Assembly: GCF_032884065.1 (NCBI RefSeq)
Contig: NC_088872.1
Location: 10,403,654 to 10,467,653 of the forward strand
Source of the DNA: Artemia franciscana
Lineage: Eukaryota > Arthropoda > Branchiopoda > Anostraca > Artemiidae
Reading direction: 5' to 3'
Length of the DNA stretch: 64,000 nt
The notes under the pieces were generated by a model. The model was not told the DNA's origin. It saw only the letters and a program-made list of their open reading frames with translations, and searched no databases. Position 1 is the first letter of the stretch; each line of letters opens with the position of its first letter. The translations under genes were made by a program, and so were the position numbers. Shown here one piece after another: positions 4,878 through 63,946 of this stretch.

Positions 4878-5095
4878 TCAATCCACAGGTCTCTTGGTGC
4901 AAATAACCTTCTGAAGTCTTCGTTTCGTCAATCTTTTCAGCTTACTTCCTGCTTCTGATTTCAGAACTTTCATAAATAGAATTTTCCTTCCATATATATC
5001 TGGATGCTTCTTCATAAATCTTTGGGCTATGTGTATAAACATATATATGGCTGAATTAATCCCAAATGGGATACAGCCTTTATATCGGAGAAACC
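4878..5095 (-). CDS. TERT: TERT exon 7 (C-terminal extension and stop)
   Basis: A good acceptor (T-rich tract ending in CAG at 5097-5096) opens the exon. The first two bases complete a phase-1 codon, and the frame then runs 71 codons to TGA at 4880-4878. The peptide (residues 848-919) contains KGCIPFGINSAIY, followed by IAQRFMKKHPDIYG. This lines up with the last helices of the vertebrate TERT thumb, where an LP-x-E/N-A-x-x-W/Y segment is followed by a basic YxxLL-type helix. The tail is very basic (KLKRLTKRRLQK). No open frame continues past the stop. Confidence 0.85.
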
Positions 5096-8000
5096 CTGAA
5101 AAAAAAAGACTGATTACAGAGGAATCAATATAATTCCATAAAAGATGAAAAATAAGCTGGGATTAATTTTATTGATATGCTGGACACAGGCAACTGAGGA
5201 CTAAGATAAGGTGAATGTATATTAGATTTTCTAGATGAAACTTCGACGATTAGTTAACCAAGGGATTTTTTTTTCACTAGGGGGGGGATTAGTACTGAAA
5301 ATTGGTTTAACCGTTTATGCAAACAATTTTACAAAATTCTAACTTTAGTTGTCGCTAAGTCCATAACACAACTGATGGCTATCTTACCTTCAGACACTGG
5401 ATCGAGTCCGAAAGGTCAAGTGCTGAACTTTAAACCAATCCAATTCAAGATTCTTAATCACATTTGACATTCTAACCAATAAAATCAAAGGTTTTGATAA
5501 ATCAATCTGAATATACTGACCAACGAAACCAAAGATTCTCATTAATCAGATTCAATAACCATTTTATCATGATCTATTCGAGAGGTTGACTGAAATAGCC
5601 TTAGTTGTTACTATTAATAGTTTTTTTCCGGAGGTAAACTTAATAGGAAAAGGCAAAATTGTAAGAATTTACCCTTGCTGAATTTTAAGAATGATTTACC
5701 GGGGTTAAATCCTTTCTTGGTAAAAGCTTGAAATTTGTTTTTGTTTGGGTGAATTGATTCTTGTTAAAAGGGAAATCTAACAGAAACAAAGTTAACGAGA
5801 CACAGAAAATATTTTAGAAGGGCAGCTGATTTTGGCATTTCGCCAATATTAGAACTTGGTTTTATTGTACTTGTAGTAAAAGTTATAAATCTCTTTTGAA
5901 TATCTTTCCAAACCGAAATAATAAAAATTAAAACGATGATTCTTTTAAAAACAAAACCTTTGTTCTTTTCTAACCATTTTTTTGTGTTCATTTTATCTTA
6001 GATATCAGCTACAGGTTGTTTCAAGCACTTTTTTTTTATTAACCGGCTGAGTTTGACGTTTCCACGCTACTCTATTTAATTCTCCAGACTCTATTGAAAC
6101 CAATTACATGCCCACGCTTCAGAACCATATTTGATCATTGTAATTACTTAGCTTCCGATCATCTAATCTTGGTATGAAGACTTATCTTCCTATTCTTCCA
6201 AACCATTTTCGCCCGCAAAAAAATAACCCTGGGTCTTGGCTATTCTACTTTTACCATCTTCAGTGCACCTGCCGTGCTTACTAATAATGCTACCTAGGTA
6301 AGCAAAGCTGTTCATTTGATCGATCTTCTCGTTACCCGACATCATCTCTTCACCTTGACTTATGGCCAGTCTTAACGACTTAAAAGTTCTTCTTAATTTT
6401 CAAAACTAGTCTTGCATTCCAATCCAATCTTGTGAATCCAATTAAGTTTCTCTAAAATTGTCGCTAACCGAGGTAGATACAATAGAAAGTCTCTTGCTAA
6501 ATTATACTCGGTTTTTACAGATCATTCGGTTTTGTTTCTTTCTGGTATTTACCCTATTTTTCATAAAAAAGATATCAGTTCAATTCGTTCTTATTATTTC
6601 CGGTTTTCCCGTTTTCTATTGTATCTGCCTCCATGGTATAGGAATAGGAGCCTCATATCTGTTTATAGTTTTTCGAATATCGGGCCGACGCTCACGGAGC
6701 TTGCTGGCAAAGTACTCCAGTCTACTTATAAGTATATGCCCGCCCACAGAGGCCTTACTCGTTTGCTTTAGTTTCTTGTTCTTTCTGTTTTGTGTAGTGT
6801 TTGTTTTGTTTCTTTTATTGATACTCCGCTTTGATTTTTGTAGCGGGTCAAGAATAAATAAATTATTATTATTATTGTTATTCTAAACTCTCAAATCCTC
6901 CAAAAATGCTTTCAATTTGCTAAGATTCTTATCTAGAAAGCTTAAATCATCAGCATAATCTAAGTCTAGGAGAGTTTTACTTTCCCATTTGATTCTGTGC
7001 TCTCCCACAGCCTTTGCTGTACTGCTTAGGGCCAAGTCAATCAAAATGATACATACACCTGGGTACAGTTACATCAAACATAATACATTTTTAATGTTTT
7101 CACTTTTTTAGACTTCAATAAATTCAAAATTTTAAAGACTAAGGAATTAATACCAGCATATGTCTATTAAACTGTAAATCCACAATCATTTATTCTTTTC
7201 AGTAAGCTTGGTTATAAGGGCATTTTTTCTCTTTTTTTGATATTATAAGAAATAGAAACATTCACCTCGAAACTAAGATTGTTTTCAGTAAAGTGAAAAT
7301 TATATTCTGGTCTTCAAAAGGCATGGGGGCGCACCTCTATAGCCAATATTCAATAGCCAATTGCATTTACTGAATTGCGTTCAAAAGCACTTGCAAAAGT
7401 CTATTGCAATTAATTATTTGCTTATTGTGCTTTAGAGCTCAAATATTGCCCTTTAACAGATAGGAAATTCTCGAAAAACTTATCCATTAGTAAAAGCTAA
7501 CAATTTTTTTGGTGATTTTGTAAGTTTCTATGTATTTACAAGACTAAAATCAAGCCTTTGAATTAAAATCACGTTTACGAGACTTTGAATTAAAATCAAG
7601 TATTTGTAGATATGGCTAATTATAGAAAAGGCCAAGACAGATAGTCCGATTGAGTGAGAGGCAAATCTGGTATTCCCCTTATTAGGATTGTATAAAAATG
7701 ATGTTAGTTCATTTGTTAATAGATAAGTCTATCTATTATCCGTCCATTGAATTTTTTCTTTTGTAAAAAATATATTATAATGCTGAAACTACATTCCTTA
7801 AATTACATTAATTACGCTTATTCAATAATTTATTGCAAGTAATTGCAATAAGCCCTACAGAACGTGGGGCTAAACTAAGCAATTCAACTAAGCCCCAATT
7901 TACAAGCATGTTCGATTTCCTTCCAGTTTTTGGCTACATTTTTCGGTCTTATATTTCCGATTTAAATAGTACAATCTCGTATATCAGACTATACTTTATT

Positions 8001-11000: not shown

Positions 11001-14000
11001 ACCTCTAGAATTCGTTAAGCTCCTTGAGTTTTCTAAAAAGCTCTGTAATTCTTTCAAAATACACTATCTTCTCCATTAACCACAAAAAGTAATGACGTTG
11101 CTGTATGTATAAGAAGAATAATAGACTGGATAACCGATAAAATTTCACCAGAAATCTTGGCTTTCAAGGGTAGATAAATTTGAACTCATTAGCCAGTAAG
11201 ACTAATGTAAAGTTATGAAGCAATGATATTTTGGAAATTCAACTGATGGGAAAAAATACAGAATTGACACAGGATCAAAAATTATATAAAATTTATCAAG
11301 TTTTTGTCCGCAAATTTTCAATGTACAGGCCAATATTGCAAGGTTTTAGACTCAGTGGATGGGGGTTGGTAGCGACACAGTTGAAAGAACTTCCTTGGAC
11401 GAGAATCAATGATAGGAGTTGAATCCTTACTCTTTTTTTTACTGATTCGGGTGGGTGCTTAGTTTAGTACGGCGAACACTGAACGATAAAATTCATAATA
11501 ATGAGTAGCAAGCAGCCAATCGTTTCGAGCTTTTTCTCAAAATCGTTTTCAAAGCAATAAACGGTAAATTAAGATATTCTAATTTGATATCCAGAAGAAG
11601 TTAAAAAGTCCAATCTGGAGCTTCCAGAACTCCCGATATTTTGATTACACGGGATCTTGTATGGCACTCCCCACCTTCAGCCAAAGTGCCAAGGGAAAAT
11701 ATGATTCAGAGCACCTGCCGGTGAGCTAGGATAAATCTTGCGCTTGCGTGCACTGATTTCGGTTAAATAAAGGGAGTTTCTGGCTTAGATCAAACTTAAG
11801 CAGAGTTACCATCGATACAAATTTGACACCAAATTCAGCAAGTTCAATTGTGGGGTTAAAAAAAAATATCTTACAACTGATTGCAGTGTGATTTTCACGA
11901 GATTTTAACTCTTCCTGCTTTCATTTCATTTTATTTTCTATTAAAGGGCGTATATCCAATGCCCCAAAATATAACAACTACTTTTAAACCAGCTGGAATA
12001 ACTGTTCACACAGAGTCTGCTAGCCCAGCACCCGTCAACAGTCCAGCTTCTATTTCAGTTGTTACACTGGAGCCTCATTCAGTTTTTTTACCTCGTGTAT
12101 TTATACCGCTACAAGAAACAACCATGAATTTTATCCGTGAATGGAATACTAGGACGCTACTAAAGAAAGATACAACTAGAATTCCGAACCTTGCAGACTT
12201 TCCATGAAATAACAGACCAGTGGGTTAAATCTCCTCCCCCCTTTAAGTTTACAATTCTCTCCCCCAACTTGATGGCAGTTACCATTTTACGCTTTCTCTA
12301 AATCCAATAAAAGATCATATTTGCCAGTACAAATTTGATGTATTTAAGTATCGACCAATTACTGATAGTTGGCTCCTCAATTTGGGAAAACGGCTTTCAT
12401 AAGAGCAATGGAAAGATGTATTTGCTGTTGATGAAGCGAAAAAGAAAGCCGAACTTTTCCAAGAAAAATTTATCAATAATTATTTACTTCATTTTCCAGA
12501 GGTCATAAAGAAAAGAAGTTTTAATGATAAACCTTATATAAATGACGCAATAAAAAGTTAAATCCGACAAAAATTAAGACTGTTCCGACAAGGAAAGACT
12601 GAAGAAGCTAACCTACTAAAGAAATTTATAAAAAAAAGCAGATTCGAAAAGCTTCGGCCAAGTGTTACCGTAATAAAGTAAGAGAACTCTTTAAAGCACG
12701 GCCGACGCAGCGGTATACACTCAATATAGTCAAGAAAATCAGTGGTAAAACAGTCAAAAATGTTGACTTTAATCTTGATGTTCCCCCTGAAACTACAACC
12801 AAATCATTAAATAAACAACCTGCCGCTATTGTGCAAACCCTCCCTGCTCTCTCATGTCTATTCCCCGCCTCCCAGCACCAGACCAGAATATCCCTACAGG
12901 CTGTTGATGTTGATTGAGGCGAAAATACGTAAACTCAAGAAAACATCAATATGCCCCCTTGACATTCCAATTGATTTAGTAAAAGTATTTCTTGATAAGT
13001 TAACAAAATCTTAATCAAATATTTTTAATACAATAACTAGAAGTGGTTCATTCCTAAGTGCTGGAAAAAAGGATACATTAGACCCATACAGAAGAAAGGT
13101 ATTAGATTGGACAATTAGAGTCCGATCAATTTCCTTAACAAAAATATTTTTAAACTGTAAGAGAGTTTTGCAGCGGATTGGCTTAAAAAGACGATCCTTT
13201 TACTTACTGATGGATAACAATTCGGAAATATGAACACATTACCTGGTCAGTCTTCTCAATACTATATATAAATTACTTGACGAGCCAGATACCTGGCTCA
13301 ATCTCCTTTTAATTGATCTCCAAAAGGCTTTTGATCTGGTTAGTCATAATGTTTTAGTTGAAAAATTGCTGAAAGAATTTAGTGTACCCCATTTTCTAGT
13401 CAATATTGTGGCATCTTTTTTGTCAAATAGGAGTCAAGTTGTTAAATATAAAAATGTTTATTCTGATTCACTCACTACTTCTTCCGGAGTTTCGCAGGGT
13501 ACGCTTTTAGTTCCTTTACTATTTTTGGTAATGATTAACAATCTTGCTAATAAATCAGCCAATCGATGGAAGTTTGGTGGATAACATGTCATTGGTCGAA
13601 AAGTACAGAAGAAATATTAACAGCAGTGCAATGGAAATTCTCTAAGACGCTGCAAGTGAAGCAGCCCAGTCAAAAATGAAAGTGAGCCCCCCATAAATCT
13701 CATATTATGGCCTATAGTTTTCTTAAATCAAAGTCATCATTTGTAACCCCAATACATAATGAAATAATTACAACAAAACTAAACTGCCTAGGGGACACAC
13801 TGACACTGTCTAGCGATTTGAAAGGGGACGCCCATATTTGCTCTATTGTTAAAACAGGCTAGCATATCTCTATCTCTCCTTAAGCTGTTTGCTAAATTTT
13901 CATGCCCAAAAGCACATATCCCCCGCCTTTATATATCTTTTACCCGTCCATAGCTTGAGTATGCTTGCCTGGTGTGGCATTTTGGTCTTATGGTGGACCA

Positions 14001-20000: not shown

Positions 20001-23000
20001 ATAACCTCCCCCTCCTTTTATTTACCCGACCGTTGTGAACTGTCTTATGTCCTGTTGACGCGATAAATTAATTAACTCTGATCCAAACATTGCAACTGGG
20101 TAAGAAGTTATTCTCTGAGTCCACAAAGACTTTTCTTCGATAGTATGAGAGAGCAAAAGGTGAAACTGTGGTATATTTGGTTGGAAGGGTGGCCACCTCT
20201 CGTCTACGATTAGTCAGAACACTAATTGTTTACTCCCTCCAATGCATACACTTGAAAAAGATTATTTTATTATTTTTGATTCAGTAAATTTTGCGACTTT
20301 GTTCAATAAGTAAATTTTGGTCTTTATATTACTGGGTATTCGTTATTACAGGCAAGAGTGGTGAATGCCTGATACATTGCTCTGGGAGTACTAACCTTCC
20401 AAGTTGAGCTGGGTATACTTTACAGAAGAGGGTGTCCAGAAGTACAACATTGTAGATTAAAATAGTTTCGCCTAAATGTACCAACATCGTATCTAATAAT
20501 GGTTCTGATTTTTCCTTCTCAAATAAACTTAAAATGAAGCAAAAACAAAGAAGGATAAATATCACCTTGTTTCCCTTTTTTTCATCATTCAAACCCCAAA
20601 ATTGAACCACAACCTACCAACCGATAAAAAACAGGAGAAAACTGAGAACCCAACCCTATGGCCCAACAGCCCTTCAAGCTCCCTCAATGAAAAAACTCAT
20701 AGCTCACTCTCAGACACGCCTGAATATTTCCCCTAACACAATTAAGAACCACCAATGCCCTTCTTTCTCCTACAATAATTATCAAAATATAAACACTTCA
20801 AAAAGGAACGAAGTACCAAGACTACTTACCCAAAGACTGGCGAAAGGTCTTCCATCTTTTATGAACAACCACTGAGTCTGGTTTTGTAGGCACTCTACAT
20901 TGGAAATTTGCAGCCATTGCCTGTAATACAATGAGTGCATCATTCTCCAATACCCTTGCAGCAGCATCACTTGGCTTCTTCACTTTCGTAATCATTCTTG
21001 CACAACCATCAGGTTTTGGTATCCATTTAACTACACCAGAGCAATGAAAATCTTCAAGTCTTTTTTCTGCTAATGTTTTATTTATCACTTCAAGTTTTTT
21101 ATTCTTTAGCATATCTCGAGTGTTTTTTGCTGATTGCTTCAACCATGCAACTTTGTGATAATAGACTAGGTCATATGAGGCCGACTTTTTGCTAATAATA
21201 AAACAGGAACTGGTAATGAAAGGCACAAAATACGCTAATAGCCACATAATTAACTTCCCAGCTGCACACTGCCGTACAGAATCAGTATAATCTTTTGTCC
21301 ACTTGAAATAAGACCATTTAATTCCTTCCATTACTTCTTGTAAATCAAACTCTTGATAATGAGTTCTAAAAACGATCTTTTTTACTTTTTCTTGTAAATT
21401 ATGAATATTACACCGACCACCAAGAAGAGACTTGGGCAAACAAGTATCAATTATTTTCTTAATAAAGTTAAAAATATGTGCTTTTGATATCTCACTAAAA
21501 CCTGGGGCTTTGTGGATGCTCTTTTCAAAAAGGAACGGATTAACCCCTTTTAAACTAGTGCAAAATGAGTTAAGAGCAGGTAGTGAATGGTCAAGTGCTT
21601 CTCTGCATTCAAGATGCACCGTTTTATCACTCCCAATGTCAAGTCTTTGAATTTGACGAAGAAGAGCAGCTCCGTTACATCCATCAATAAGATTACTGAA
21701 ATCAAGTTTCGTTTTCCATTTGACACCTTTGACTTTGTTTAATATTAGAATAGACCGAGGATCATAAGGCCGTCTCTTATCAAATGATCTGAAAAGTGAA
21801 ACAGAAATTTAAATGGAAATTTAGATGAAAAGACTACAGCAACAAGTAAATAAACAACTATACGGCTCTTCTGTGAGGTATATATATATATTTAAAAAAG
21901 GAAATAGCCCATCTTAAAACCATACTCCGCAGAAAAATTGCCAAAATTCAATTTGGCTTGTCTCTGGATCTAGCCTTCGTTGATCCAGTGCCATTTCTGT
22001 AATTTTAAATAAAGTTCAGATAGTATTTTTAGCCTTTTTTGGCGGCTGCAAAAAGGATAGTAATCATGGCCAGCCCAGCCAAAGTGAGAAATTTTGGTTA
22101 AAATGTTAGATTTGATTTTAACTTGATGAAGATCCTATAAGAATTATGCCCATTTGTTCCGTAGTGAGGCAGAGAGCTTGACCTTAGCTTGGTAATACGG
22201 GACCCAGAGATCAAACCTTGCCGTAGCAACACACTACAGGGGGGCCGACGTAAGAACTTTTGTAGTCAAGAAGCGCCGTTAATCCGATTACTTTACGTAC
22301 TTGAAGATTCCGCATTGCATCCTTCAGTCATATAGGCTAACTAAAAACAAGTTTTGTTTATTATTTGATTGACTTGACTTTGTTTGGTATTAAACTGACG
22401 CGGGGATCATTAAGCTGTCTTTTATCAAATTATTTCGAAAATGAAAAGGGCTTAGAAAGAATTATGAAAGTTGACATAGTTGATAGATGCATCTTGGAGT
22501 ATCCAAAGGACAACTTATAGCTATATAAAAACTACTTTCCTCCCTTTCCTTCCAAATTGCAGCATTTCACAGTACTGGAAAAATTTGGATAATACTTCAT
22601 TGATAAGAGAAAGAAAATCAAACCTTTAAGCCCTTCCCTCCTCCCTTATGGAACAATCTTTAAAATATTGAACTTACAGAGACATGCAGTTCTCCCATTT
22701 CTTTGTAAACCGGAATGGTAGCTTCATGTGTTTAACTCTAAAGGACTTTCAGCAATTGGAGCTAATAAATATGAAATTAGCTTAAAAGCAATCACTGAAA
22801 TCTCAGGTGCCCGGAGAAACAAAATCATGATTGATAAATCAACATAAAGCTGACCTTTTTGTCTATTTCCAGTTCTATGAGCATGAAACAATTTTTTTGA
22901 CACCAAAAGGGTCTACTCTTACAGGTCATATCTTCTACATTTTAGTCTTTTAATTCTTTTTCTTTTTCTTTTACGTTGTCTACAGAAACATAAAATGAAA

Positions 23001-26000: not shown

Positions 26001-29000
26001 GTCACCAGATCCGGTCAGGATTTAAAATAAGAGCTTTGAGCCACGATATCCTTCTAAAAATCAAATTTCATGGAGATCCAATCACCCGTTCGTAAGTTAA
26101 AAATACCTCATTTTTTTCTAATTTTTCAGAATTAACCCCCCCCCCCCCCAACTACCCAAAAGAGAGCGGATCCGTTCCGTTTATGTCAATCATCTATCTA
26201 GGACTTGTGTTTATTTTTCCCACCATGTTTCATCCCGATCCCTCCACTCTAAGTGTTTTCCAAGTTTTAGGTTCCCCCTCCCAACTCCCCGCCCCCATCA
26301 CAAGATCTGGTCGGGATTTAAAATAAGAGCTCTAAGACACGATATCCTTCTAAACATCAAATTTCATTGAGATCCGATCACCCGTTCGCAAGTTGAAAAT
26401 ACCTCATTTTTCTAATTTTTAAGACTTACTCCCCCCCCCCCAACTACCCCAAAGAGAACAAATAAGTTCCGATTATGTCAATCATGTATCTAGGACTTGC
26501 GCTTATTTTTCCCATCAAGTTTCATCCCGATCCCTCTACTCTAAGTGTTTTCCAAGATTTTAGGTTTCCCCCCTCCAACTCCCCCCAATGTCATCAGACC
26601 CAGTCGGGATTTAAAATAAGAGCTCTGAGACACAATATCATTCCAAACATCAAATTTCATTAAGATCCAATCACCCGCTCATAAGTTAAAAATACTTCAT
26701 TTTTTCTATTTTTCCGAATTAACCGGCCCCTACTCCCCCCCCCCCAGATGGTCAAATCGGGAAAACGACTATTTCTAATTTAATCTGGTCCGGTCCCTGA
26801 TACGCTTGCCAAATTTCATCGTCCTAGCTTACCTGGAAGTGCCTAAAGTAGCAAAACCGGGACTTTAGGTTTTCCCCCTCCGACTCCCCCCAATGTCATC
26901 AGATCCGGTCGGGATTTAAAATAAGAGCTCTAAGACACAATATCATTCCAAACATGAAATTTCATTAAGATCCAAATACCCGCTGATAAGTTAAAAATAC
27001 TTCATTTTTTCTATTTTTTGCGAATTAACCGGGCCCCCACTCCCCCCCCAGATGGTCAAATCGAGAAAACGACTATTTCTAATTTAATCTGGTGCGGTCC
27101 CTGATACGCTTGCCAAATTTCATCGTCCTAGCTTACCTGGAAGTGCCTAAAGTAGCAAAACCGGGACAGACCGACAGACAGACAGACAGACAGACCGACA
27201 GAATTGGCGACTGCTATATGTCACTTGGTTAATACCAAGTGCCATAAAAACGATACGATACCCGACTTAAAACGCTTTTCATTTTCAAAATCATTATTAA
27301 CTATATATACTAGCATTTCCCTTCGGGGAAGACTAAACTTGGTAATGACTAACCTGGCTAATATAGACTTACTTTCTTTTAGCTTGTCAGTAGATTTCAA
27401 CAAAAGATCATGAGATAGGGCTTAAGAAAATATGCTAATAGTATGTTTTTTATTTTGTTTAGTAAGGACTTCCTTTCAGAGTGGTTTAAATCATTCTGTA
27501 CACGGGGAGGGGGGCCAACTATGGAAAATGACAAGAAATAAGGAAAATATGAAATAGTTTGAAAAAAAAGGAAATGAATTAAAAACTGGTTTGAAATTAA
27601 CTATTCAGAAGCCAAGTTCATAAAGTCCATAAAACAAGTATGCTATCCTTAACCCATAAAATATTCTTTAATTTCGAAAATACAGGCACTTGGCAACTTT
27701 TTGACTTTGGTATGTCATCAATAGGCCCAAAAAAGCTAACAAAACAAATAGTAGGGTTCAACACTCCTCGATACTTCTAAGGTAGAAAAAACTACACAGA
27801 AACAGCCAAACTCACGTCTTTTAGGCTTACAACACCAGTTGAGCTCATCTTACAAACCTTTTTTTCTTAATCGTTTTCTTATTATTCCTTTTGACTGTTT
27901 GAATAGGATCGCTTCCTTTAGAGACTTTCCTCTTTTTACAATGAGTTTCTTTGCCAAATGTTGAGCACAATTCATCATATTTTCTTTTCATTACAGCTCT
28001 TTCTTGCAGCTCAGAGGCTTGAGTTCGTCTTAGAAATGCAAAGCGCGATACATGAACGATCGGCATCAGTTTCCCTACAAGAGCCAAGCATTTTGAAAAC
28101 AAAAATGGTTTACCTGCAAAACTCTAATTTTAAGGAATATATTCGGACTAGGCGTTCAAAGTGGAGAGTGAAGGAATGGGCATCCATACTCTTATGACTG
28201 AAAGATTTACAAAGACGGGAGAGGGAGGTATGGAAGAGATGTTCCCCATTCTCCTTTTTTTAAAGCAGTTTTTTGCCAAATTTTGAGTACAATTCATCAT
28301 ATTTTCTTTTCATTGGAGATCTTTTTTCGTAGATCATATTTTCTTTTCATTCTTGGATGTCATATGCTTGAAATTTTAAAAGATATACGAACTCAACAGA
28401 TGAATAAAATAGAATAAGTCCCCAATGAGAGCTGTAAAATTTTCAAAATAAGACTTATTTAAAAAATAAGTCTTATTTGTCATTTATTAACTAGTTAGGC
28501 AATATTAATTAGTCAGAGAGAATTAATTGGTCACTTTTCTTCCCTTAAACCTTGCCGTCCTTGTTCTGCCTCAACAAGAATTTCCACTTTACCCAATAAA
28601 GTGTTTTCAGGAAAGATATTAACTAGTTTCTGTGTTGTATATCTCTAAAATTTTAACAACTTCTTCCATTCTATCCATCATATTTTTTCCTATTAAGTTT
28701 ATATAAGTCACTTGATGAGCATACTATATTCTGTTTCAATTCCTGAAAGATCATTTTTGCATGTTATTCAACCAAAAATTGCAACCCATTTTTGCCTTTA
28801 TTTCAATAATTTTTCTTGAATTTTGCCTCTTATTCTGAGGTAGTGTGGCTAATGTCCTGCATTTTATACCTGTTCATTGCTGATCTACAAAGCAAATTTG
28901 ATTCTCTCAGAAACTACAATAGTATTTCATAATAAAACATTGGCTCACCTTAACCATACTAAAGACATTTCACCAATGAAGAGCTGACAGATTATTACAA

Positions 29001-32000
29001 GACATTAAAATATTCTCGTAAATATTTAGGATCGATGAATCTCAACATATAAATGTCTCTCAAACTGGAAAGTGTTCAGAAGAAGTAAAAATACTCATAT
29101 TCTTCAGCTAGTTCATGTGTCTCTTATTATTATTTTTTTCCAATTAACCATAAAAATATATTAATTAGCTTTCCATATTATTTCCTTTTGCACACCAAAA
29201 AGGAAGCTAGCTTTACTCTAAGGGAATCTGAAGACCTTTAGCACATGCCAAATATACATGTTCCTGAAATTCAACGAAAGTACTCCTACCAGGTACCGAA
29301 GGTGTCCAAAAACCGGTAAAAAAAAAAAGAAGTGCAGTTCATAAGCCTATTCTGAGCTACAGGGGAAAAAAATAAACAAGAATAACAAAAGAATTGGACT
29401 GAAGAAAGCTTTTATATGTTTTATTTTCTTTAACTGCTACTGAACATTAAAAGATTAGAACAAGTAACTAATCCAAGTACTTCTACGTCTTATTTATACA
29501 ATACAACAACCTAAACAAGACATTTTATAGCTTGTAATATCGTAGATCATCGAAGCTTCAGACAATGTGGATGTCAAAACCTTTCTCTTTTCGGGAACAG
29601 AGCAAATTTCTTGAAATAACTGTAACAACAGACACCCCTTAAAGTTAGTTGCGAATCTAGAAGGGTTTGTTCAGTATAAAATATTGGATGATACTAACCA
29701 GTTATGATGTCAAAGCAAGGAAAGCAGTCAATTCTAGAAGACTTTTTGGTTCAAAAATTAGGCGAATGTAGCATCGGTTTTACACTTCTTTATCTGCAGA
29801 AAGGAGAGGGGGTAACATTGGGTCTGGGTCTCAAATTAAAAAAAATTACAAATCTAGGCTTTGATGTTGTTTGAAGCAATGTTGAAATACAACCTTTTCA
29901 TTATAAGATCGACATGAAATACTAAGCTAAAAATTACTTTTTTTATATGAACTTTTTTATGATAAGGATATAATAACGCATCTTTACTTTCATAGAAACA
30001 TTTGTATAACTGAGCATATTTACATGATTTACTAATTAGTTAAGATTTACAAAGTTAATTACTAGTCCATGCTTAAAACTGCAAATGTTCTCAAAACAAT
30101 GAGGCTTGTTTTAAATTGTAGGTGACTCATTAGCATCCATTAAAGTGTATAGCCCAAAGCCTAACACAAACCCCGAAAATATGTGCAATTTCATCGGAAA
30201 TTATATAAGAAGCTATGTCAATAGAATTGAAGAAACGGATGATCGTACGCGATATCAATTGCTTCATAACCCTTGAATTCCACTGTCTGACTACAGCGTC
30301 TCCTATTCAGTTCACATGAAGTAGTGCAGGGACGAACAGAGATGTTTCAATCGTACTCACGTGGAAGAACCCCATTGGTTATTACTCTCAAATAAGATGA
30401 GGGGCTTTCTCTGTAAATACTGTGCTCTGTTTACCGTCGCAGGGGTTGGAGGCTCCAATCAATTGCAAAAGTTGGTAAAGACACCCCTTATGACTTTTGC
30501 TAAGCTACTTGGGAAAGACAGCGACTTGGTATGTCAGGAAAATAATCAGTATCACCGCGATTCAGTTTTTGCAGGCAAACATTTCCTTTTAAAATATAAT
30601 AGCCATGAAAACAGCACTTTAAGCCTTTTAAATAAAAAAGCCAACAAGTGCAGGAAAAAAGAGCGAGAGTGAAGCCAATAGTAGAATCAATTATTTTCTT
30701 GGGTTGACAGGACACTGCTCTTTGTGACCATGGAGGTGATGGAGAATTATTACCAGAGAAGGGCCCATTGATAGACGAAGAAAACTTCCGAGAGCTTTTA
30801 ACGTATCGTGTGAATAGTGGTAACATCACTTTAAAACAACATTTGGAAAGCTCGTGTGCAAATGAAACTTATATAAGCAAACCAATGCAGAATGAATTAA
30901 TTGATTGTTGGGCTAAGGAGATTCTTAATGAAGTACTTACACATGTTCATTCTGCCAAGTTCTACAGTATAATTGTTGATGAAATAACAGATGTTTTACA
31001 CAAGTCACAACTAAGTAGGCTATTGCCCTTTGCTACAATTATAGTTGCACAAGACTTGAGGAATTCGTTTGTTTTTTAGACCAATACAAAACATAACACT
31101 CAGATAGCATTGGAAACTTCGAATTTTTTTTTTAGGTAGGTAAGTTTTATTTTATCCACAATACAAACATAAATAAAAAAATGACAACACTAATAAATTA
31201 TTGCAGCAAAAAGAAAGTCCTAAGGACTTGTGCTGAAATTTCATATTATGATTTACATCTTATAAATAAATATCTAAACATAACATCTCATGATTAACCA
31301 CCTAGCCTATCTTATATATAAAAAATAACAACACATACACATGAACAAAATACAACAAAATAATCATATTAAATATCATTTACCGGTATTCAGTCCCCAC
31401 CCCACATCAATAAACTGCAAAAAAAAGACATCAAAAACCTTCTGCCCTTCAAAACCTATTACTTAAATAAAACATTTTCAATTTATTTTTAAACCCATAT
31501 AAAGTGACAGACTCCCTGATGCCAGCCGGCAAACTATTCCAAACAGAAGGCCCCAGATTCCGAACCACATATGATGATCGAACTGTTTTTCTTTGTTCAT
31601 GGCTTAAAAGTTGTGAATTTCTTGTATCATAATTATGGTACTCCTGATTCATGGAAAAATAATCATGAAAATACTCAGGGCATATATGTTTCATGCTCTG
31701 GAACACAAAAATTGATGCCTGGTAGTCACGAATCTGACCAACATTTAAAACATTACACCGGGAAAAGCTAGCAGTAGTTTTGGATTCAACCTGCTCTTTT
31801 ATGTCCGCAATCAATCGAATGCTTTTATTTTGCAAAATCTGGATCCTTTTATAATTAGAGAAGAAATTACTAGCCCAATGAACACAACCATAATCTATAT
31901 AAGGATGAACAAGGGAAAAATAAATGATTTTTAAAATCTTGAACGGAAAAGTTTTTTTTACACGTCTCAAAATTCCTAGACCCCTAGCCATTTTAGCACC

Positions 32001-35000
32001 AATAACACTGCAATGCTTTTTCCAACTAATATTATTATCTAAATAAAACCCCAAATACCTAATTTCAAAAACTTGTTTAATGGGTAAATGTCCAAAAAAA
32101 ATGTTATTATTATCATTAAGTAACCTACCTGTTCTACTAAATATAATGTAATTTGTTTTAGATGCATTAACTGCTAGGGAACTACCTATTGTAAAACTGC
32201 GCAAACGTTCAAGTGCTAAATTAGCCTTATGTGCAACCTGCACCAAACAACTACCAATTACTATTATCGCAGTGTCGTCCGCGAAAGAGTTCAGCTCCTC
32301 AACTCCAACATGTGAAGCCAACGAATTAACATAAATAAGATAAAGTAGAGGTCCCAGCACGGAACCTTGAGGCACTCCACACTTAACACCGAACTCTCTG
32401 CTTGATATATCTGATAAAGCAACTTTGATAGTCCGGCCATGCAAATACGATGAAAACCACTTTACACAAGTACTACCTAACCCAAGCCCACTTAGTCTAC
32501 TAAGAAGAGTATTAAAATCAACAGTGTCAAAAGCCTTACGGAAATCTACAAAAACAGTTAAAGGAATCATATTATTTTCAAATGCATTATCAACAAAACT
32601 TAAAAGATGGTGTACTGCATGACTAGTGGAATGTTTACTTCTGAAACCAAACTGTCCATTATACAAAATTTTCTTCGAATCCAAAAAATCATACAATCGT
32701 TTATAAATAACTTTTTCATAAATTTTACTAAATAAAGGTAAAATGGAAATTGGTCGCCAATTACAGGGTTCTGAGGGGTCCCCACCTTTATGTAAAGGTA
32801 TGATTTTAGATTGTTTCAGTTCCGACGGGAAATGCCCTTTAACCATTGAGAGATTAATTAAATGAACCAGTACCGGTAAAAGATACACCGACACATAATT
32901 AAAAGCCTTTAGGTTCAATCCATCTACACCAGAAGAATTTGATTTAAGGCTACAAACAATTTTTTCAACTTCTTCTACATTACATGGTACAAATTCAAAC
33001 CCATTCTGCATGCTTGAAGGATTTACCTTAATGTTGACGGCACAACTACCTCTAGACACTTCATTCTGTATAACACTACCAATTTTCGAAAAATAATCAC
33101 CCATGTAATTTGCTATTTCCAATTTATCATGAATAATTCTATTACTAGTTTTTAAATTGGTTATACACATATCTTTTTTTTCACATCCTATCACTTCACG
33201 GACAATTCCCCAAGTATCTTTTATATTACCTTCCTTAATCTTCAAACAGTTTAAATAATACTCATTCTTTGCATTTCTTTTTGAATTATTTACATAATTT
33301 CTCAACTCTTTAAACTCATTTAAAATCATTTCAGATGGATTATCAAGATATTGACAATACAACTTATTTCTTTGTCTTATTAAACTCAAAATTTCATCAT
33401 TTATCCACGGCTTTCTCGGTTTAGCTTTCTTGCAATTAATTTTATTCAATGGGCAATTTTTCTCAAACACAGGGTAAAGAATATCTGAAAAAATGTTAAA
33501 AGCTTTTGAAGCATCATCCTTTTCATTGTAAACCACCTCCCAATCCAACGAACTAACTTCATTTTTAAATTTAGCCAGATTAACTTCTTTCATGTCACGC
33601 CGAAGAATCTTGTTTTTTCTTTTAATTTTACAATGTGATAACTTCTGCAACAAACAAAGAAGCGGTAAGTGGTCCGAACCAGAATGGATTAATACATCAC
33701 ACATGCTATCTTCCACCATAACTTCAGTGACGAAAACATTATCAATCAAAGTTGCAGAATGGTCTGTTAATCGGGATGGGATAGAATTTAATGGGAAAAG
33801 ACCAAATGAAAGCATGACATTAAGGAAATCCAAATTTTTGGCTTGAAGATCTAATAAATCAAAATTAAAATCACCTATGATTACAATTTTATCAAAATTT
33901 CGATTTATTTCAGATATTAAAATTTCAATTTCCTCTAGGAAAAAATCCGGACTAGCACCAGGGGGTCTATACACCGATGAAATAAGAAGTGGATTATTAT
34001 TACTTGTCACTATTTCAATAGCAAAAGTTTCAATCTTACCTTCAATCCATAAAGATAAATCTTCCCTTACTTTAAATTTTATATCATCCTTGATTATGAA
34101 TGCTAAACCTCCCCTTCCCATCAATGACCGGTTCTTGGAAATAAGTGTGTAACCTGGAAAATTAAACAACGAAGCAGGACATTGTTCACTAATAAATGAT
34201 TCACAAATACCTATCACTTGCACCTCACTGTTAAGTTTATTAATTATATCAACTACATCTTCATGTGAAGTAGTTAAATGACAATTCCAGTGGAGAATCT
34301 GGAATCCGGACAGCATAACGGGTGCACTCACATCATCTACTGCAACATATTTACTAAGCCTTGCAGGCTGTTTATCCGAAAATTCCGACCGGCTACCAAC
34401 ATCACTCGACAAAATATTATCCAACGAAAAGCGATTTTTTTCTAACTGAAGTAATCGTGAAAACATTCATAAATAATTAATCCTACTTCCTATTAAAGAA
34501 CTATTACTACGAAAGAATGTAAATACTAAAGTACACATTTATAACTACTAAAACGAAAAAAAAAAAAAAAAAAAAAAACTCAGATTATATGTCGTCACAA
34601 CTCCACAGTCGGCGTGTCCGAGCGTCATTTCCAGATCGAGCGAAAATACGGCCGTGATCGGACCATACGTTGTGGTTACCTAACCTATCACGAGCCAGTT
34701 GCAGAATTTCTCGTCGCTTCTTAGTTAAACTTTCAGACACAAATATACCAGATTTGGCCAGTTTGCTCTTAGCAGCAAATACCTTTCTAGCCACATCCTT
34801 AGACGAAAACTGGGCGAGTACCGGTGCAATCATATCAGGCCGCGTAGGATTCTCTGGAAGGGTAAATCTATACACTTTAGTTAGTTCCGAAACATAAACT
34901 TGTACGCCCATCTTGTCCGAGATAATATTATTAATACACGATTTTACATCAGCACCCGGAGCTTGTTTGACACCACTGAAAATAAGTGAATCCAGCCTAT

Positions 35001-37614
35001 TTTCCTGCTCAATATCGTCAAGTCTACTTTCGATCTTTTTCACTCTCTCTTCGAGTATCATGAAGCTGTTTTTTAGTGATTTTAGTTGCTTTTCGATAAA
35101 ATCAAATTTTGGCGAGTATTCCACCATCAAAGAATCATATACGTCAGATATCATTGATTCAGCCGAGTGCGGGAGTTGATTTTTTATGCGATCGGAAACT
35201 TTACGTGAGATTTCATCCCTGAGATTCGCTTTTACAGCTTCCAATTCTTGTTGAGTCTGAGTTAGTCTCATGTTCAGGTCAGAAGATTGGTTGCCTATAT
35301 CCGGGCTTGAATTTGACGGATGATTTTTCGAAAGATGTCCTGGTTGTTCAGTGCTGTTAGAAACAGTGCCCTTGCGCTTAGGACGGGACGACATCGTAAA
35401 CTACTAATTAGTAACTCTAATTAACATGAGACAAAGACTTACACGCAAGGGGGGCTTTTTTACGACCCCCCAGCTTCAAAAAGTGCCAGATATTATCCAA
35501 TTAGGTTTGCAACAGGCTAATCCAAATCAATTTCCTGCATCAGATATGACACGAACAAATTATAACACTGGTTAAACGAGTTTAGGTGTTTTCACTATGA
35601 ATGGCGGATAGCAACTCAATCAATAAATAAAATCAATCAATAAAGGGAAACTCTTGGATATTTCCCTTGATTTCTTGGGCTAGACCTGGGAAATTGTATA
35701 GACATAGGCACTGACAGATATGCTATGATGGTTTTCGAACATTGTAGTGCTGTAAAAGAAGCTCAAAAGGTAGCAAATGTCCCCTGCGTTGCTTATGTTT
35801 CAACAATATTCTATATCTTTCTATGTCAAAAACTTCGTCTGTCCAGAGTATTAGAAACTCCATTGGAGTAATAAAAGAAATAGTTGCTTTTATCAGTGCT
35901 TCTCCAAAGCGCAATTATGTTTTAACCAGAAAAATGACCGCAAAGCTATCTAAACTATGGGAAATGCACTGGATTGAACGGTCCAACTCCTTACCGCAGC
36001 TAGTGGTAGAGCTCCCAAAAATATTGCAAGCGATTGAGACCATCAGCTGGTAGGCAGAATGCGCAACTGCAGCAAAAGCCTTATTGACTGCAGTCACATC
36101 TTCCAATCTGATAGTAACTATTTGCACAGTAAGTAATATATCTGGACTGATTTTACTGCTCAGTCAGCCATTTCAAAAGAAGAGCTTGGATCTTGTCTCT
36201 ACAGTAAGCTATCTTAAGGAACTTTTTACTCAGCTGGATGTCAAGCATCAGGAGAGTGAAACCTAGCTCAAAACAGAGTTTGACGAGGTAACTAAAGTAG
36301 CAACCGAGTTAGGTTAAGAAATAAAAGTCCCAAGGATAGCAAAAAAGCAAATGAATTGGACGGATATGCCACTCAGTTTACATGATGAATTTACATGATG
36401 AATTTTTCTTCCTATATTGGACACGATCGATTCAGATCTTCCTATATTGGACACGATCGATTCAGATACCGCTTCCCATAGAAACCCTGGACACTTTTAA
36501 GCTCAGTATTAACTTGCCAATAAATTGTTTGGAAACAAAGAAACAGCAATCCGTTGCTATGAGTTATGACTTGTCAGTACATTACTGGCCAGTAACTAGC
36601 TTCAGCTCCCAATTGGTTTATGAATCTGCCCTGACTGGAGAACCGACAAAAGGAAAAACTTGGTGGCTTTGTCTGAGAGAAAGCAATGCAGGATTGGGTA
36701 GAATACATGAACCACTAGGGGAAGCTTTTCACAAACACAACTGCAATGCTGATATTTTTCCAAATTTTCCGGCACTCTTCCAGATCCAGATGCATGTCAG
36801 TGAGGTACATGCAGTGAGGTAAAGCTATTTGAACAAATAAAAGGTGAGAATTTGTTGCATAATATTGATAATTTTTCTATAAATGAAAATTTATAAATAG
36901 CTTTACAGAACTAACAGCTAAATGACAGATAGAAGCAGAGGCATGCAACTTTCAATATCAGTAAGATACATAAGGCTTAATGGAGAATGGGGTTTTATTT
37001 TTGCAACAAGCTACGCCCACACTTCCTAAAATCCTGGAACGGCCCTTGTGGATTTCAAACTGTAAGCTATACAAAAACTATGGGTTGATCCCACTTTTTA
37101 GGGCTGTATTAAAAGAAAGTTTGAGATAGTTTTTTGCAGTGAGTTATTTGTACCAGAAGAAGTATTCAAATAATAAACAAGAAAATCACACATTTTGGGA
37201 AAATTAGCATTTAAAGAAAAAAAAGAAAGATAACAAATGATCCTTTTTAACTTGTCCAAACTTACCAAAAACATGAATTAGGACACCAACATGATCAATA
37301 TAAATTGAGCTGCAGTTATATAATAGCTGTATAAGACCATCACCTAATGCTCGGCAGAAATCATCCCAATAGCAATTACGAATCAATTGAAAAACATCAC
37401 ATGAAGTCGAGCCAATTTGATTAGTGCCACTAACCCCATTTGATAATAACAATTTAATAGAGTCTTCAATTAGTTTATCATATACAATCCATCCACTTGT
37501 GATAACTGTATTTTTGGATGAAACTTTGGCTATGAGGTTTGCTGGTAAAAACTGTCTCAGCAGACTCACTTCTTTGTTTGGGTGAAGGAAACGAAGACTA
37601 TTTTTTGGTCTCAT
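4878..37614 (-). CDS. TERT: Telomerase reverse transcriptase, seven-exon gene
   Basis: TERT is the catalytic subunit of telomerase: it copies the telomerase RNA template onto chromosome ends in the nucleus. Coding exons on the minus strand, in gene order: 37614-37266, 28074-27858, 21788-20830, 19850-19307, 17000-16761, 10206-9974 and 5095-4878. All introns are GT-AG. Junction phases are 1, 2, 1, 2, 2, 1 and each agrees on both sides, giving 2760 nt (919 residues plus stop). Order of parts: TEN-like domain (about 1-130), basic linker (about 130-190), RNA-binding domain with T motif IPKPDG (445-450), motif A with Asp522, motif B' GLPQG (635-639), motif C VDD (Asp676, Asp677), motif D (about 702-711), motif E (WxNFCG, 729-734), and thumb/CTE (about 765-919). 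The T motif before the RT domain separates TERT from retroelement RTs. Assignment is by remembered family motifs, not a search. Start codon and any 5' non-coding exon are the least certain parts. Confidence 0.93.
6050..7060 (-). pseudogene. RTE-like LINE reverse transcriptase fragment, split by an insertion
   Basis: Minus-strand translation of 7060-6890 gives a peptide with LLDLDYADDLSFLDKNLSKL, the RT motif C (YADD) of RTE-like and related LINEs. Translation of about 6400-6150 gives EKIDQMNSFAYLGSIISKHG and then SRIAKTQG, the conserved segment shortly downstream of motif C in the same family. The two parts should be nearly contiguous but are separated by about 440 bases of unrelated sequence. 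Frames are broken. This is a dead fragment inside a TERT intron. Confidence 0.7.
6455..6888 (+). mobile_element. Short retroposon-like insertion inside the RTE-like fragment
   Basis: About 430 bases interrupt the RTE-like RT relic and end in an AATAAATAAATTATTATTATTATTG tail, a simple-repeat 3' end of the kind found on CR1-like LINE tails and SINEs. The 142-codon plus-strand frame here is hydrophobic and Phe/Leu-rich because of T-richness and is not convincing as a protein. Clear target-site duplications were not identified. Orientation is inferred from the tail. Confidence 0.4.
8260..8282. repeat. (GATA)n microsatellite
   Basis: Five GATA units in a row, followed by gtgtatttcaaaaacccatgg. 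The arrangement resembles the inverted 3' tail of a truncated LINE. Confidence 0.6.
9974..10206 (-). CDS. TERT: TERT exon 6 (thumb domain)
   Basis: Acceptor: T-rich tract plus CAG at 10209-10207. Donor: ACTG|GTAAGA at 9974/9973. The exon is 233 nt with phase 2 in and phase 1 out, matching exon 5 before it and exon 7 after it. Residues 770-848 include PKLTRTLVTKMGWIALDPTI, which follows the vertebrate TERT pattern K-L-x3-L-x2-K-x4-L-D-x2-(V/I)-N just after motif E. Then come MMRFTCLV (compare the RFHACV segment) and FLFRIITELKAVIVTKFT, which matches the FFLRVISD-type helix. A competing acceptor eight bases inside the exon (TTTTAG) would break the frame, so the upstream CAG was chosen. The overlapping 94-codon plus-strand frame is treated as a shadow. 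Confidence 0.85.
11900..14330 (+). pseudogene. Degenerate CR1/L2-like LINE (endonuclease-RT ORF2 remnant)
   Basis: Plus-strand translation with frame changes gives successive pieces of a non-LTR ORF2. About 12330-12530 reads YKFDVFKYRPI, then FQEKFINNYLLHFPEV. About 13250-13350 has LLIDLQKAFDLV-like sequence (RT motif A, with the catalytic Asp). 13366-13584 reads VVKYKNVYSDSLTTSSGVSQ, then GTLLVPLLFLVMINNLA (motif B and what follows). About 14230-14310 matches a typical ORF2 C-terminus (RYRKSFVPAFVK-like). Many stops and frameshifts make it non-functional. The family is judged from remembered CR1/L2-type elements. It lies antisense to TERT within intron 5. Confidence 0.75.
14790..14960 (+). 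pseudogene. RTE-like LINE C-terminal fragment
   Basis: A plus-strand frame reads MVRWLGHVLRRRNNRLPNIE followed by LFGPSQR. This is the highly conserved RWLGHVLRM-x-DDRLPK-x-x-LFGQPS segment near the C-terminus of RTE-like LINE polyproteins. A related fragment is present at about 38 kb on the other strand. Only about 40 residues are recognisable. Confidence 0.6.
15150..15915 (+). pseudogene. Mariner-family (Tc1/mariner) transposase relic
   Basis: Pieces of a mariner transposase appear in order on the plus strand across several frames. The first is a helix-turn-helix region (REIILNNRGRTIDEAAKI). Next comes VITGEESxHFGxDTKTKQ, where functional copies have VITGDESW. Then follow SNVKTMLIGFSDM and a VNQPFYLKILK stretch, and finally a NNAPAHTALSVRQ-like stretch before YHPPY. 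The catalytic Asp positions appear as Glu in the first block and Asn in the NNAPAH block, and there are several stops and frameshifts, so it is dead. The two minus-strand frames over this interval are shadows. Confidence 0.85.
16761..17000 (-). CDS. TERT: TERT exon 5 (RT motifs D and E)
   Basis: Acceptor TTTCAG at 17002-17001 and donor CAAG|GTTTGT at 16761/16760; 240 nt, phase 2 in and 2 out. The first base completes an Arg codon started by exon 4. Residues 691-711 (YPDFGISFKNTKC) give motif D, equivalent to the vertebrate PEYGCVVNLRKT, with the lysine retained. Residues 729-738 (WANFCGVAFD) give the motif E primer grip, equivalent to FPWCGLLLD. The following segment, rich in Ser and Leu, leads directly into the exon 6 thumb sequence. 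Confidence 0.9.
17001..19306 (-). other. TERT intron 4 (about 2.3 kb)
   Basis: Spans the donor CGAAG|GTAATT at 19307/19306 to the acceptor at 17001. No gene recognised. The 61-codon minus frame at 18950-19135 and the plus frames at 18171-18374 and 18674-18917 have no family resemblance or codon pattern that I could defend. Confidence 0.5.
19307..19850 (-). CDS. TERT: TERT exon 4 (RT motifs A, B' and C)
   Basis: The acceptor is a long T-rich tract ending in CAG (19852-19851). The donor is AAG|GTAATT at 19307/19306. Length 544 nt, phase 1 in and 2 out. Residues 516-530 (IHFASSDVKDAYGSI) form motif A, with Asp522 at the catalytic position. Residues 635-651 (GLPQGWALSGALCDIYL) form motif B', and 673-680 (RGVDDYLY) form motif C, with Asp676 and Asp677. 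Spacing between A and C fits a TERT palm. Between A and B' there is a lengthy insertion (IFD-like; about residues 550-620), as in other TERTs and unlike most LINE RTs. Confidence 0.93.
20830..21788 (-). CDS. TERT: TERT exon 3 (RNA-binding domain, T motif, RT motifs 1 and 2)
   Basis: Acceptor CACTTTTCAG at 21790-21789 and donor TTGG|GTAAGT at 20830/20829; 959 nt, phase 2 in and 1 out. The exon starts SFDKRRPYDPR (residues 190-200). Residues 306-352 (LPKSLLGGRC, then FDLQEVMEGIKWSYFKW) match the RNA-binding domain pattern (vertebrate LVPPGLWGSRHN, then LSLQELTWKM). Residues 373-450 run from MWLLAYFVPFITSSCF through LVYYHKVAWLK to VVKWIPKPDG. This matches the TERT T motif and RT motif 1 (WLMSVYVVELLRSFFYV, then FFYRKSVW, then IPKPDG). 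It ends with HKRWKTFRQSL, equivalent to IHRAWRTF, just before motif A. Confidence 0.95.
22370..22440 (-). pseudogene. Decayed partial copy of TERT exon 3 start
   Basis: Read on the minus strand, this stretch (TTTGATAAAAGACAGC, later ATGATCCCCG, later CCAAACAAAGTCAA) tracks the first 60-70 bases of TERT exon 3 (TTTGATAAGAGACGGC, ATGATCCTCG, TTAAACAAAGTCAA), in the same order and spacing. The acceptor CAG is changed to CGA and the following sequence diverges. It lies about 600 bases upstream of the real exon in gene orientation. Confidence 0.7.
22985..23275 (+). CDS. Candidate first coding exon of an unidentified membrane protein
   Basis: A long pyrimidine tract ends in CTACAG at 22984. The first suitable ATG is at 23092, and the frame then runs 61 codons to a strong donor, TTTG|GTAAGT at 23275/23276 (phase 1). 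The peptide starts MFLIYYVAGAVFWFLCLFIV, then FLMKKS, then a polar Ser/Lys/His-rich stretch. This looks like an N-terminal signal anchor, as in single-pass ER proteins. I do not recognise the family and found no following exon. It would be a gene nested antisense in TERT intron 2. A chance open frame with lucky splice-like ends cannot be excluded. Confidence 0.3.
23370..25160. repeat. Dispersed repeat block
   Basis: The start (aaaggccatattaaactta, then agaaattactattaaagaataaatgaaa) matches the arms of the foldback element at 38.5-39.9 kb. The phrase ggagcgacattaaaacttaaaacgaac recurs at about 24935, with close relatives at about 23540 and 24370. G-rich patches alternate with AT-rich stretches. 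No intact protein frame is visible. The block runs up to the array beginning at 25260. Confidence 0.55.
24979..25112. repeat. Imperfect inverted repeat (hairpin)
   Basis: The left arm (gatgttcccttctcaa, then cactctttacgctaaagttt) is answered by aaactttagcgtaaag, then ttgagaagggaacatc. Arms are about 45 bases with few mismatches and a loop of about 30 bases. It could fold into a long hairpin as DNA or RNA. It is probably the palindromic end or core of a non-autonomous element. Confidence 0.75.
25260..27245 (+). repeat. Tandem array of about 290 bp units with minisatellite head and hairpin end
   Basis: The head (25270-25440) repeats a unit of about 45 bases, agagctcatatgg...gaggtcggaagagcc. 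The body repeats a unit roughly 290 bases long, marked by atttaaaataagag, then caaatttcatt, then a C-run, then gagcggatccg, then gtttcatcccgatccct. Markers recur near 25733, 26021, 26316, 26608 and 26913. The end holds a (GACA)n run (27168-27200) and a perfect 8 bp stem CACTTGGT-TAAT-ACCAAGTG at 27222-27241. An inverted relative occupies about 57440-59520. Confidence 0.8.
27858..28074 (-). CDS. TERT: TERT exon 2 (end of TEN-like domain and basic linker)
   Basis: Acceptor CTTGTAG at 28081-28075 and donor AAAAAG|GTTTGT at 27858/27857; 217 nt, phase 1 in and 2 out, fitting exon 1 and exon 3 exactly. The first part (GKLMPIVHVSRF) continues the TEN-like domain. The rest (KRKYDELC, then HCKKRKVSKGS, then KRNNKKTIKKKR) is a Lys/Arg-rich, low-complexity linker like the poorly conserved TEN-RBD linker of other TERTs, and it may carry a nuclear localisation signal. 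Sequence similarity alone is weak. The assignment rests on position, strand, phase and character. Confidence 0.72.
28262..28350 (-). pseudogene. Decayed partial copy of TERT exon 2
   Basis: The plus-strand string ttgccaaattttgagtacaa followed by ttcatcatattttctttt matches 27953-27989 in exon 2 (ttgccaaatgttgagcacaa, ttcatcatattttctttt) with two substitutions. A shorter second echo, gatcatattttcttttcatt, follows at 28333. The match then ends. It lies upstream of the real exon in gene orientation. Confidence 0.7.
31449..34466 (-). CDS. LINE ORF2: AP-like endonuclease and reverse transcriptase
   Basis: A 1005-residue polyprotein that nicks target DNA and copies the element's RNA at the nick. 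The endonuclease (EEP) domain covers about residues 55-275, with WN at 60-61, GDFNFD at 198-203 and SDHLP at 264-268. A central linker follows. The RT domain covers about 500-780, with NWRPIS at 569-574, motif A FVDFRKAFD at 639-647, motif B GVPQGS at 697-702 and motif C FADD at 728-731. A C-terminal region of about 200 residues follows. All key catalytic motifs are present and the frame is uninterrupted, so it may still be functional. The motif style fits the CR1/jockey group; the exact clade is not determined. Confidence 0.93.
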   Translation of the reverse strand: MFSRLLQLEKNRFSLDNILSSDVGSRSEFSDKQPARLSKYVAVDDVSAPVMLSGFQILHWNCHLTTSHEDVVDIINKLNSEVQVIGICESFISEQCPASLFNFPGYTLISKNRSLMGRGGLAFIIKDDIKFKVREDLSLWIEGKIETFAIEIVTSNNNPLLISSVYRPPGASPDFFLEEIEILISEINRNFDKIVIIGDFNFDLLDLQAKNLDFLNVMLSFGLFPLNSIPSRLTDHSATLIDNVFVTEVMVEDSMCDVLIHSGSDHLPLLCLLQKLSHCKIKRKNKILRRDMKEVNLAKFKNEVSSLDWEVVYNEKDDASKAFNIFSDILYPVFEKNCPLNKINCKKAKPRKPWINDEILSLIRQRNKLYCQYLDNPSEMILNEFKELRNYVNNSKRNAKNEYYLNCLKIKEGNIKDTWGIVREVIGCEKKDMCITNLKTSNRIIHDKLEIANYMGDYFSKIGSVIQNEVSRGSCAVNIKVNPSSMQNGFEFVPCNVEEVEKIVCSLKSNSSGVDGLNLKAFNYVSVYLLPVLVHLINLSMVKGHFPSELKQSKIIPLHKGGDPSEPCNWRPISILPLFSKIYEKVIYKRLYDFLDSKKILYNGQFGFRSKHSTSHAVHHLLSFVDNAFENNMIPLTVFVDFRKAFDTVDFNTLLSRLSGLGLGSTCVKWFSSYLHGRTIKVALSDISSREFGVKCGVPQGSVLGPLLYLIYVNSLASHVGVEELNSFADDTAIIVIGSCLVQVAHKANLALERLRSFTIGSSLAVNASKTNYIIFSRTGRLLNDNNNIFFGHLPIKQVFEIRYLGFYLDNNISWKKHCSVIGAKMARGLGILRRVKKTFPFKILKIIYFSLVHPYIDYGCVHWASNFFSNYKRIQILQNKSIRLIADIKEQVESKTTASFSRCNVLNVGQIRDYQASIFVFQSMKHICPEYFHDYFSMNQEYHNYDTRNSQLLSHEQRKTVRSSYVVRNLGPSVWNSLPAGIRESVTLYGFKNKLKMFYLSNRF
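34467..34584 (-). other. Inter-ORF spacer of the LINE with a long homopolymer
   Basis: 118 bases separate ORF1 from ORF2. In element orientation a run of about 23 T lies just after the ORF1 stop. The spacer has no other notable feature. Confidence 0.7.
34585..35394 (-). CDS. LINE ORF1: coiled-coil nucleic-acid-binding protein
   Basis: A 269-residue protein starting MSSRPKRKG, just upstream of ORF2. Residues 1-45 are polar and Ser-rich. About 45-130 has heptad-like Leu/Ile/Val spacing with many charged residues (ERVKKIESRLDDIEQENR), consistent with a coiled coil for trimerisation. About 130-235 (SLIFSGV, later VYRFTLPENPTRPDMI, later VARKVFAAKSKL, later IFVSESLTKKRR) resembles the RRM-like and C-terminal domains of LINE ORF1 proteins. 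It probably binds the element RNA in the RNP. No zinc knuckle is visible. Confidence 0.82.
   Translation of the reverse strand: MSSRPKRKGTVSNSTEQPGHLSKNHPSNSSPDIGNQSSDLNMRLTQTQQELEAVKANLRDEISRKVSDRIKNQLPHSAESMISDVYDSLMVEYSPKFDFIEKQLKSLKNSFMILEERVKKIESRLDDIEQENRLDSLIFSGVKQAPGADVKSCINNIISDKMGVQVYVSELTKVYRFTLPENPTRPDMIAPVLAQFSSKDVARKVFAAKSKLAKSGIFVSESLTKKRREILQLARDRLGNHNVWSDHGRIFARSGNDARTRRLWSCDDI
36409..36467 (+). repeat. Two tandem copies of a 29-30 bp unit
   Basis: The unit cttcctatattggacacgat followed by cgattcagat occurs twice head to tail within the hAT relic. It is a recent local duplication. Confidence 0.85.
37266..37614 (-). CDS. TERT: TERT exon 1 (TEN-like N-terminal domain)
   Basis: The exon opens with ATG directly after a T-rich tract and CAG (37616-37615) and ends at TTTTTG|GTAAGT (37266/37265); 349 nt, phase 1 out. 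The peptide starts MRPKNSLRFLHPN. Residues 80-117 (IRNCYWDDFCRALGDGLIQL, then LYNCSSIYI, then VLIHVFG) match the TEN pattern of vertebrate TERT (GAWGLLLRRVGDDVLVHLL, then CALFVLV, then AYQVCG). The TEN domain supports anchoring and repeat-addition processivity. Because an acceptor sits right before the ATG, a 5' non-coding exon or an alternative start upstream is possible. Confidence 0.78.
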
Positions 37615-37619
37615 CTGAA

Positions 37620-38000
37620 AGAAAAATAAAAAAAAAAAAAAAAAACAAGAAAAACAGAGTACACAGTACAGGAGATCCTTTCTTCGAATTTTTTTAAGAC
37701 ACTAAACCAGCTTAAATTTGGATGGTTTTAGGGTTACAGAAAAGTTTTGTCAATCTTGCCCAACAAGCCCAATCTTGTTTCAAGCCTGGTATTTTGAAAA
37801 CATACTTCAAACAAGCTTTCAAATAATGTTGTTGACCATACCACCTCTCCATCATACAAATCAAATTTTGTTCTTTATACTTTCTGTAATTTTTTGCTTG
37901 ACCTCTGATTTTAGGGGAGTTCTTGCCATCCTAACTTCTTTCTATAAGTTGTGTTTTCACAAGCTAATAAAATACTGTCAGCTATAACTGAAGGACTTCT
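37620..38000. other. TERT 5' flank
   Basis: The 380 bases upstream of the first TERT ATG begin with an A-run (T-run in gene orientation). I see no convincing TATA or initiator element. The 89-codon plus frame at 37718-37987 lacks recognisable motifs. Confidence 0.4.

Positions 38001-43761: not shown

Positions 43762-46900
<3,139 letters not shown>

Positions 46901-49089: not shown

Positions 49090-63946
<14,857 letters not shown>

Follow-up and report, generated by a model that had tools for sequence, protein, structure and literature searches.

A telomerase reverse transcriptase gene with seven coding exons, very probably from the brine shrimp Artemia franciscana

Telomerase is the enzyme that rebuilds chromosome ends. 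The gene for its reverse transcriptase (TERT) was identified, almost beyond doubt, in a 64,000-nucleotide stretch of brine shrimp DNA, very probably from Artemia franciscana, which was analysed as a whole and is called the window here (C10:10403654-10467653, from an assembly of 1.27 Gb in 6468 contigs). The gene is an ordinary one that is already known and named TERT in public databases, and little is added here beyond its intron structure and a second exon-1 donor.

Reconstruction from the sequence yielded seven minus-strand exons running from 37614 to 4878 with a sum of 2760 nt, corresponding to 919 residues and one stop, and the initial annotation, which had proposed exactly this protein and a longest exon of 959 nt, was thereby reproduced. 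In the 919-residue model, coding exon 1 (37614-37266, 349 nt) ends at the donor GTAAGT. Coding exon 2 (28074-27858, 217 nt) encodes a basic linker and is identical to the corresponding part of the deposited protein described below. The longest exon, exon 3 (21788-20830, 959 nt), carries the telomerase RNA-binding domain with what we take to be the T motif, together with the presumed motifs 1 and 2 of the reverse transcriptase (RT). Exon 4 (19850-19307, 544 nt) contains DVKDAY, GLPQG and GVDDY, presumably RT motifs A, B and C, and exon 5 (17000-16761, 240 nt) the presumed motifs D and E, with FCG. The first part of the C-terminal extension, or thumb, is assigned to exon 6 (10206-9974, 233 nt) on the basis of a weak TERT_C match, and the end of this extension, including RLQKV, to exon 7 (5095-4878, 218 nt including the TGA). 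The basis for exon 7 is its identity to the deposited protein, as no homology to other TERTs was found for this part. All six introns of the rebuilt model are bounded by GT and AG, their phases are 1,2,1,2,2,1 as had been claimed, and a single terminal TGA closes the 919-codon open frame of the joined exons.

A comparison with public records indicated that this set of junctions is not a product of chance. The translated exons 3-5 (580 residues) were used as a core query and returned one protein from the 7997 candidates sharing most words. It has 893 residues, is listed by both NCBI and UniRef as 'telomerase reverse transcriptase-like isoform X2 [Artemia franciscana]' and belongs to a cluster of three member sequences. 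When exon 1 was ended at 37344 and joined to the other six exons, the product was letter for letter the deposited isoform X2 over all 893 residues. This identity makes Artemia franciscana the very probable source of the window. It also shows that annotation did not miss the gene, and the earlier suggestion that an automated procedure might miss or split it is contradicted by a deposited model that spans all seven exons. Neither the core query (7997 candidates) nor residues 575-700 of isoform X2 (98 candidates) returned a second TERT, this protein alone being recovered. Artemia TERT appeared in no open-access literature title among the matches listed, and the word Artemia has 0 occurrences in the main text of PMC5405514.

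The identity of the protein was further supported by domain profiles. On the 893-residue form, two profiles that had been proposed as a check scored above their Pfam cut-offs: Telomerase_RBD (PF12009) with an E value of 3.6e-16 (60 bits against a cut-off of 25) and RVT_1 (PF00078) with an E value of 4.2e-12 (46.7 bits against 29.6). The same two domains were recognised in single open frames, Telomerase_RBD in the frame 21808-20825 that contains exon 3 (E 1.3e-16) and RVT_1 in the frame 19875-19306 that contains exon 4 (E 2.3e-07). Among PDB sequences, all 15 matches to isoform X2 with E values up to 10 were TERTs and none was a retroelement RT, and the exon 3 frame alone likewise matched only TERTs (11 of 11, E up to 1). 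Together with the public record of the same name, these results uphold the assignment to TERT.

Two solved structures, 7qxa and 6d6v, which we take to be the human and the Tetrahymena TERT, respectively, were informative about the extent of the likeness. A single continuous alignment to 7qxa covers residues 267-812 of isoform X2 (E 9.5e-14) and includes the RNA-binding domain, the RT domain and part of the C-terminal extension. It leaves out 266 residues at the N-terminus and 81 at the C-terminus of the Artemia protein, and no TEN/GQ region was recognised. The alignment to 6d6v falls into two stretches (E 1.5e-15). Catalytic-motif residues were found as DVKDAY at 496, GLPQG at 609 and GVDDY at 648, and FCG is also present; we presume these to be motifs A, B, C and E. 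DVKDAY and GVDDY, the presumed motifs A and C with their catalytic aspartates, align with the solved TERTs, as does the stretch in exon 3 that we take to be the T motif. The earlier claim of a T motif, RT motifs and a thumb can accordingly be retained for the T and RT stretches, whereas the thumb is weakly supported by homology, the TERT_C profile remaining below its cut-off of 27 on isoform X2 (residues 748-822, E 0.12, 13.1 bits).

The two ends of the protein are its least recognisable parts. The last 150 residues alone gave no TERT match in the PDB; one non-TERT match with an E value of 1.2 was dismissed as chance. In the first 260 residues no Pfam family was recognised, including TEN/GQ. 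According to PMC5405514, the GQ motif was lost in protostomes except nematodes, and most arthropods have also lost the CP motif; a missing TEN match is therefore expected. That paper quotes four crustacean TERT motifs, RL(K/Q)x(I/V), R(L/F)xAL, FPxxHILS and ILxxNxG. The first of them, a C-terminal motif, is present as RLQKV at 881, and when the last 80 residues were shuffled 5000 times, a motif of this type arose in 76 cases. One of the two C-terminal motifs reported there for crustacean TERTs was thus found in Artemia TERT, while the remaining three of the four quoted (the second C-terminal motif and the two N-terminal ones) were not found. An AlphaFold2 prediction made without an alignment on isoform X2 had a mean pLDDT of 34 and was unusable.

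Since RVT_1 matches are given by an RT domain alone, and the window contains further RT sequences, namely an ORF2 (34466-31452) and a fragment (13234-13581), a retroelement RT from a LINE or a Penelope-like element might be mistaken for TERT. We regard this as extremely improbable, because the gene carries a Telomerase_RBD domain in frame, the coding sequence is interrupted by six introns, and the LINE ORF2 itself gave no Telomerase_RBD match at E values up to 1. The Telomerase_RBD profile moreover matched the assembly only once, in this gene (9 candidates, 9 scored). Placement of the RT exons among retroelements, with no RNA-binding or TEN domain, had been named in the initial annotation as the outcome that would speak against TERT; the RNA-binding domain was matched and the PDB matches contained no retroelement RT, the TEN domain being unrecognised.

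A second alternative is that the locus is a decayed or non-functional relic of a TERT gene, a reading favoured by the large introns, one of which harbours a LINE, and by decayed partial exon copies nearby. Against it stand the open frame of 919 codons, the GT-AG borders of all six introns and the preserved catalytic motifs. TTAGG arrays are present in the assembly, and the sole match to the RNA-binding domain genome-wide means that no other TERT was seen. A relic is thus very improbable, and an intact TERT gene remains by far the preferred interpretation.

The intact gene would encode an ordinary telomerase catalytic subunit, as judged from what is known of the TERT family. Its RNA-binding domain would hold the telomerase RNA, and the RT domain would copy the template of this RNA into TTAGG repeats at chromosome ends; catalysis would depend on three aspartates of motifs A and C, with the C-terminal extension acting as a thumb. 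TTAGG is the usual arthropod telomere repeat. The pattern (TTAGG)5 was matched 21438 times in the forward and 10862 times in the reverse orientation of the assembly, overlapping matches counted, and the reversed-order pattern 0 times. We infer that the TTAGG arrays are made by this enzyme and are sited at chromosome ends. Among the matches listed was a run of more than 570 bases at ~2.59 Mb of contig C1 (2592354-2592927), consisting mostly of TTAGG repeats. Rfam at gathering thresholds gave 0 matches in the window, a result to be read with the caveat that the library may not cover an arthropod telomerase RNA, and ARAGORN found 0 tRNA genes there.

The 5' end of the gene probably lies outside the coding exons. 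The start codon at 37614 is immediately 3' of a polypyrimidine tract and the acceptor-like sequence TTTTTCTTTCAG, and the tract with TTTCAG (37615..37641, minus strand) probably serves as the acceptor site of a 5' untranslated intron. Because this acceptor-like sequence abuts the start codon, a further upstream exon is likely, which would probably be untranslated, and the TERT gene would then probably exceed 33 kb. The 33-kb span given in the initial annotation therefore holds for the coding exons (37614-4878), while the whole gene is probably longer.

Exon 1 has two possible GT donors, one with the exon ending at 37266 and a protein of 919 residues, the other with the exon ending at 37344 and a protein of 893 residues. 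The donor of the deposited isoform X2 (exon 37614-37344) is 78 nt earlier than that of the 919-residue model, which, with the downstream donor, has 26 more residues; the difference falls in the N-terminal region. As far as can be judged from the sequence, the two donors could yield both forms, of which the 893-residue form alone matched a deposited protein. An isoform labelled X2 presupposes an X1, and the 919-residue model is probably this isoform X1.

In comparison with its relatives, the gene is mildly notable for its introns. Crustacean TERTs are called intron poor in PMC5405514, which gives counts for two of them, one intron for Daphnia pulex and three for Parhyale hawaiensis. The six coding introns of Artemia TERT constitute a modest departure from this reported pattern. 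It appears unlikely that the gene departs from the intron-poor crustacean TERT through the whole combination of six coding introns, a probable 5' untranslated intron, an intron with a LINE and two alternative-donor forms whose strongly diverged N-terminal domains differ by 26 residues. If it were true, the 26-residue change made by the alternative donor might tune DNA anchoring.

Intron 1 carries a non-LTR retrotransposon (LINE) at 31452-35400 on the minus strand, in the same orientation as TERT. The product of its ORF2 (34466-31452) is 1005 residues long and has an endonuclease and an RVT_1 domain. An open frame upstream of ORF2 (35400-34588), which matches no Pfam family above cut-off, was taken for the LINE ORF1. 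Decayed partial copies of two TERT exons were also found on the minus strand, which we consider mildly notable. A copy of exon 2 lies in intron 1 (28252..28327; 86% over 78 columns) and is not coding. The copy in intron 2 (22332..22446; 74% over 116 columns) corresponds to the 5' end of exon 3 together with the acceptor region and has in-frame stops. Each copy lies upstream of its genuine counterpart, at a distance of a few hundred bases.

Other features were observed in the window. An open frame on the plus strand at 30708-31076 matches DUF4371, which we take to be transposase-like, and the RT fragment at 13234-13581 is another RVT_1 open frame, also on the plus strand. Long (TA)n runs occupy 43762-44179 (210 copies) and 52133-52253 (61 copies), and tandem arrays of a 200-base unit, with 96% matches between copies, extend over 60576-62339.
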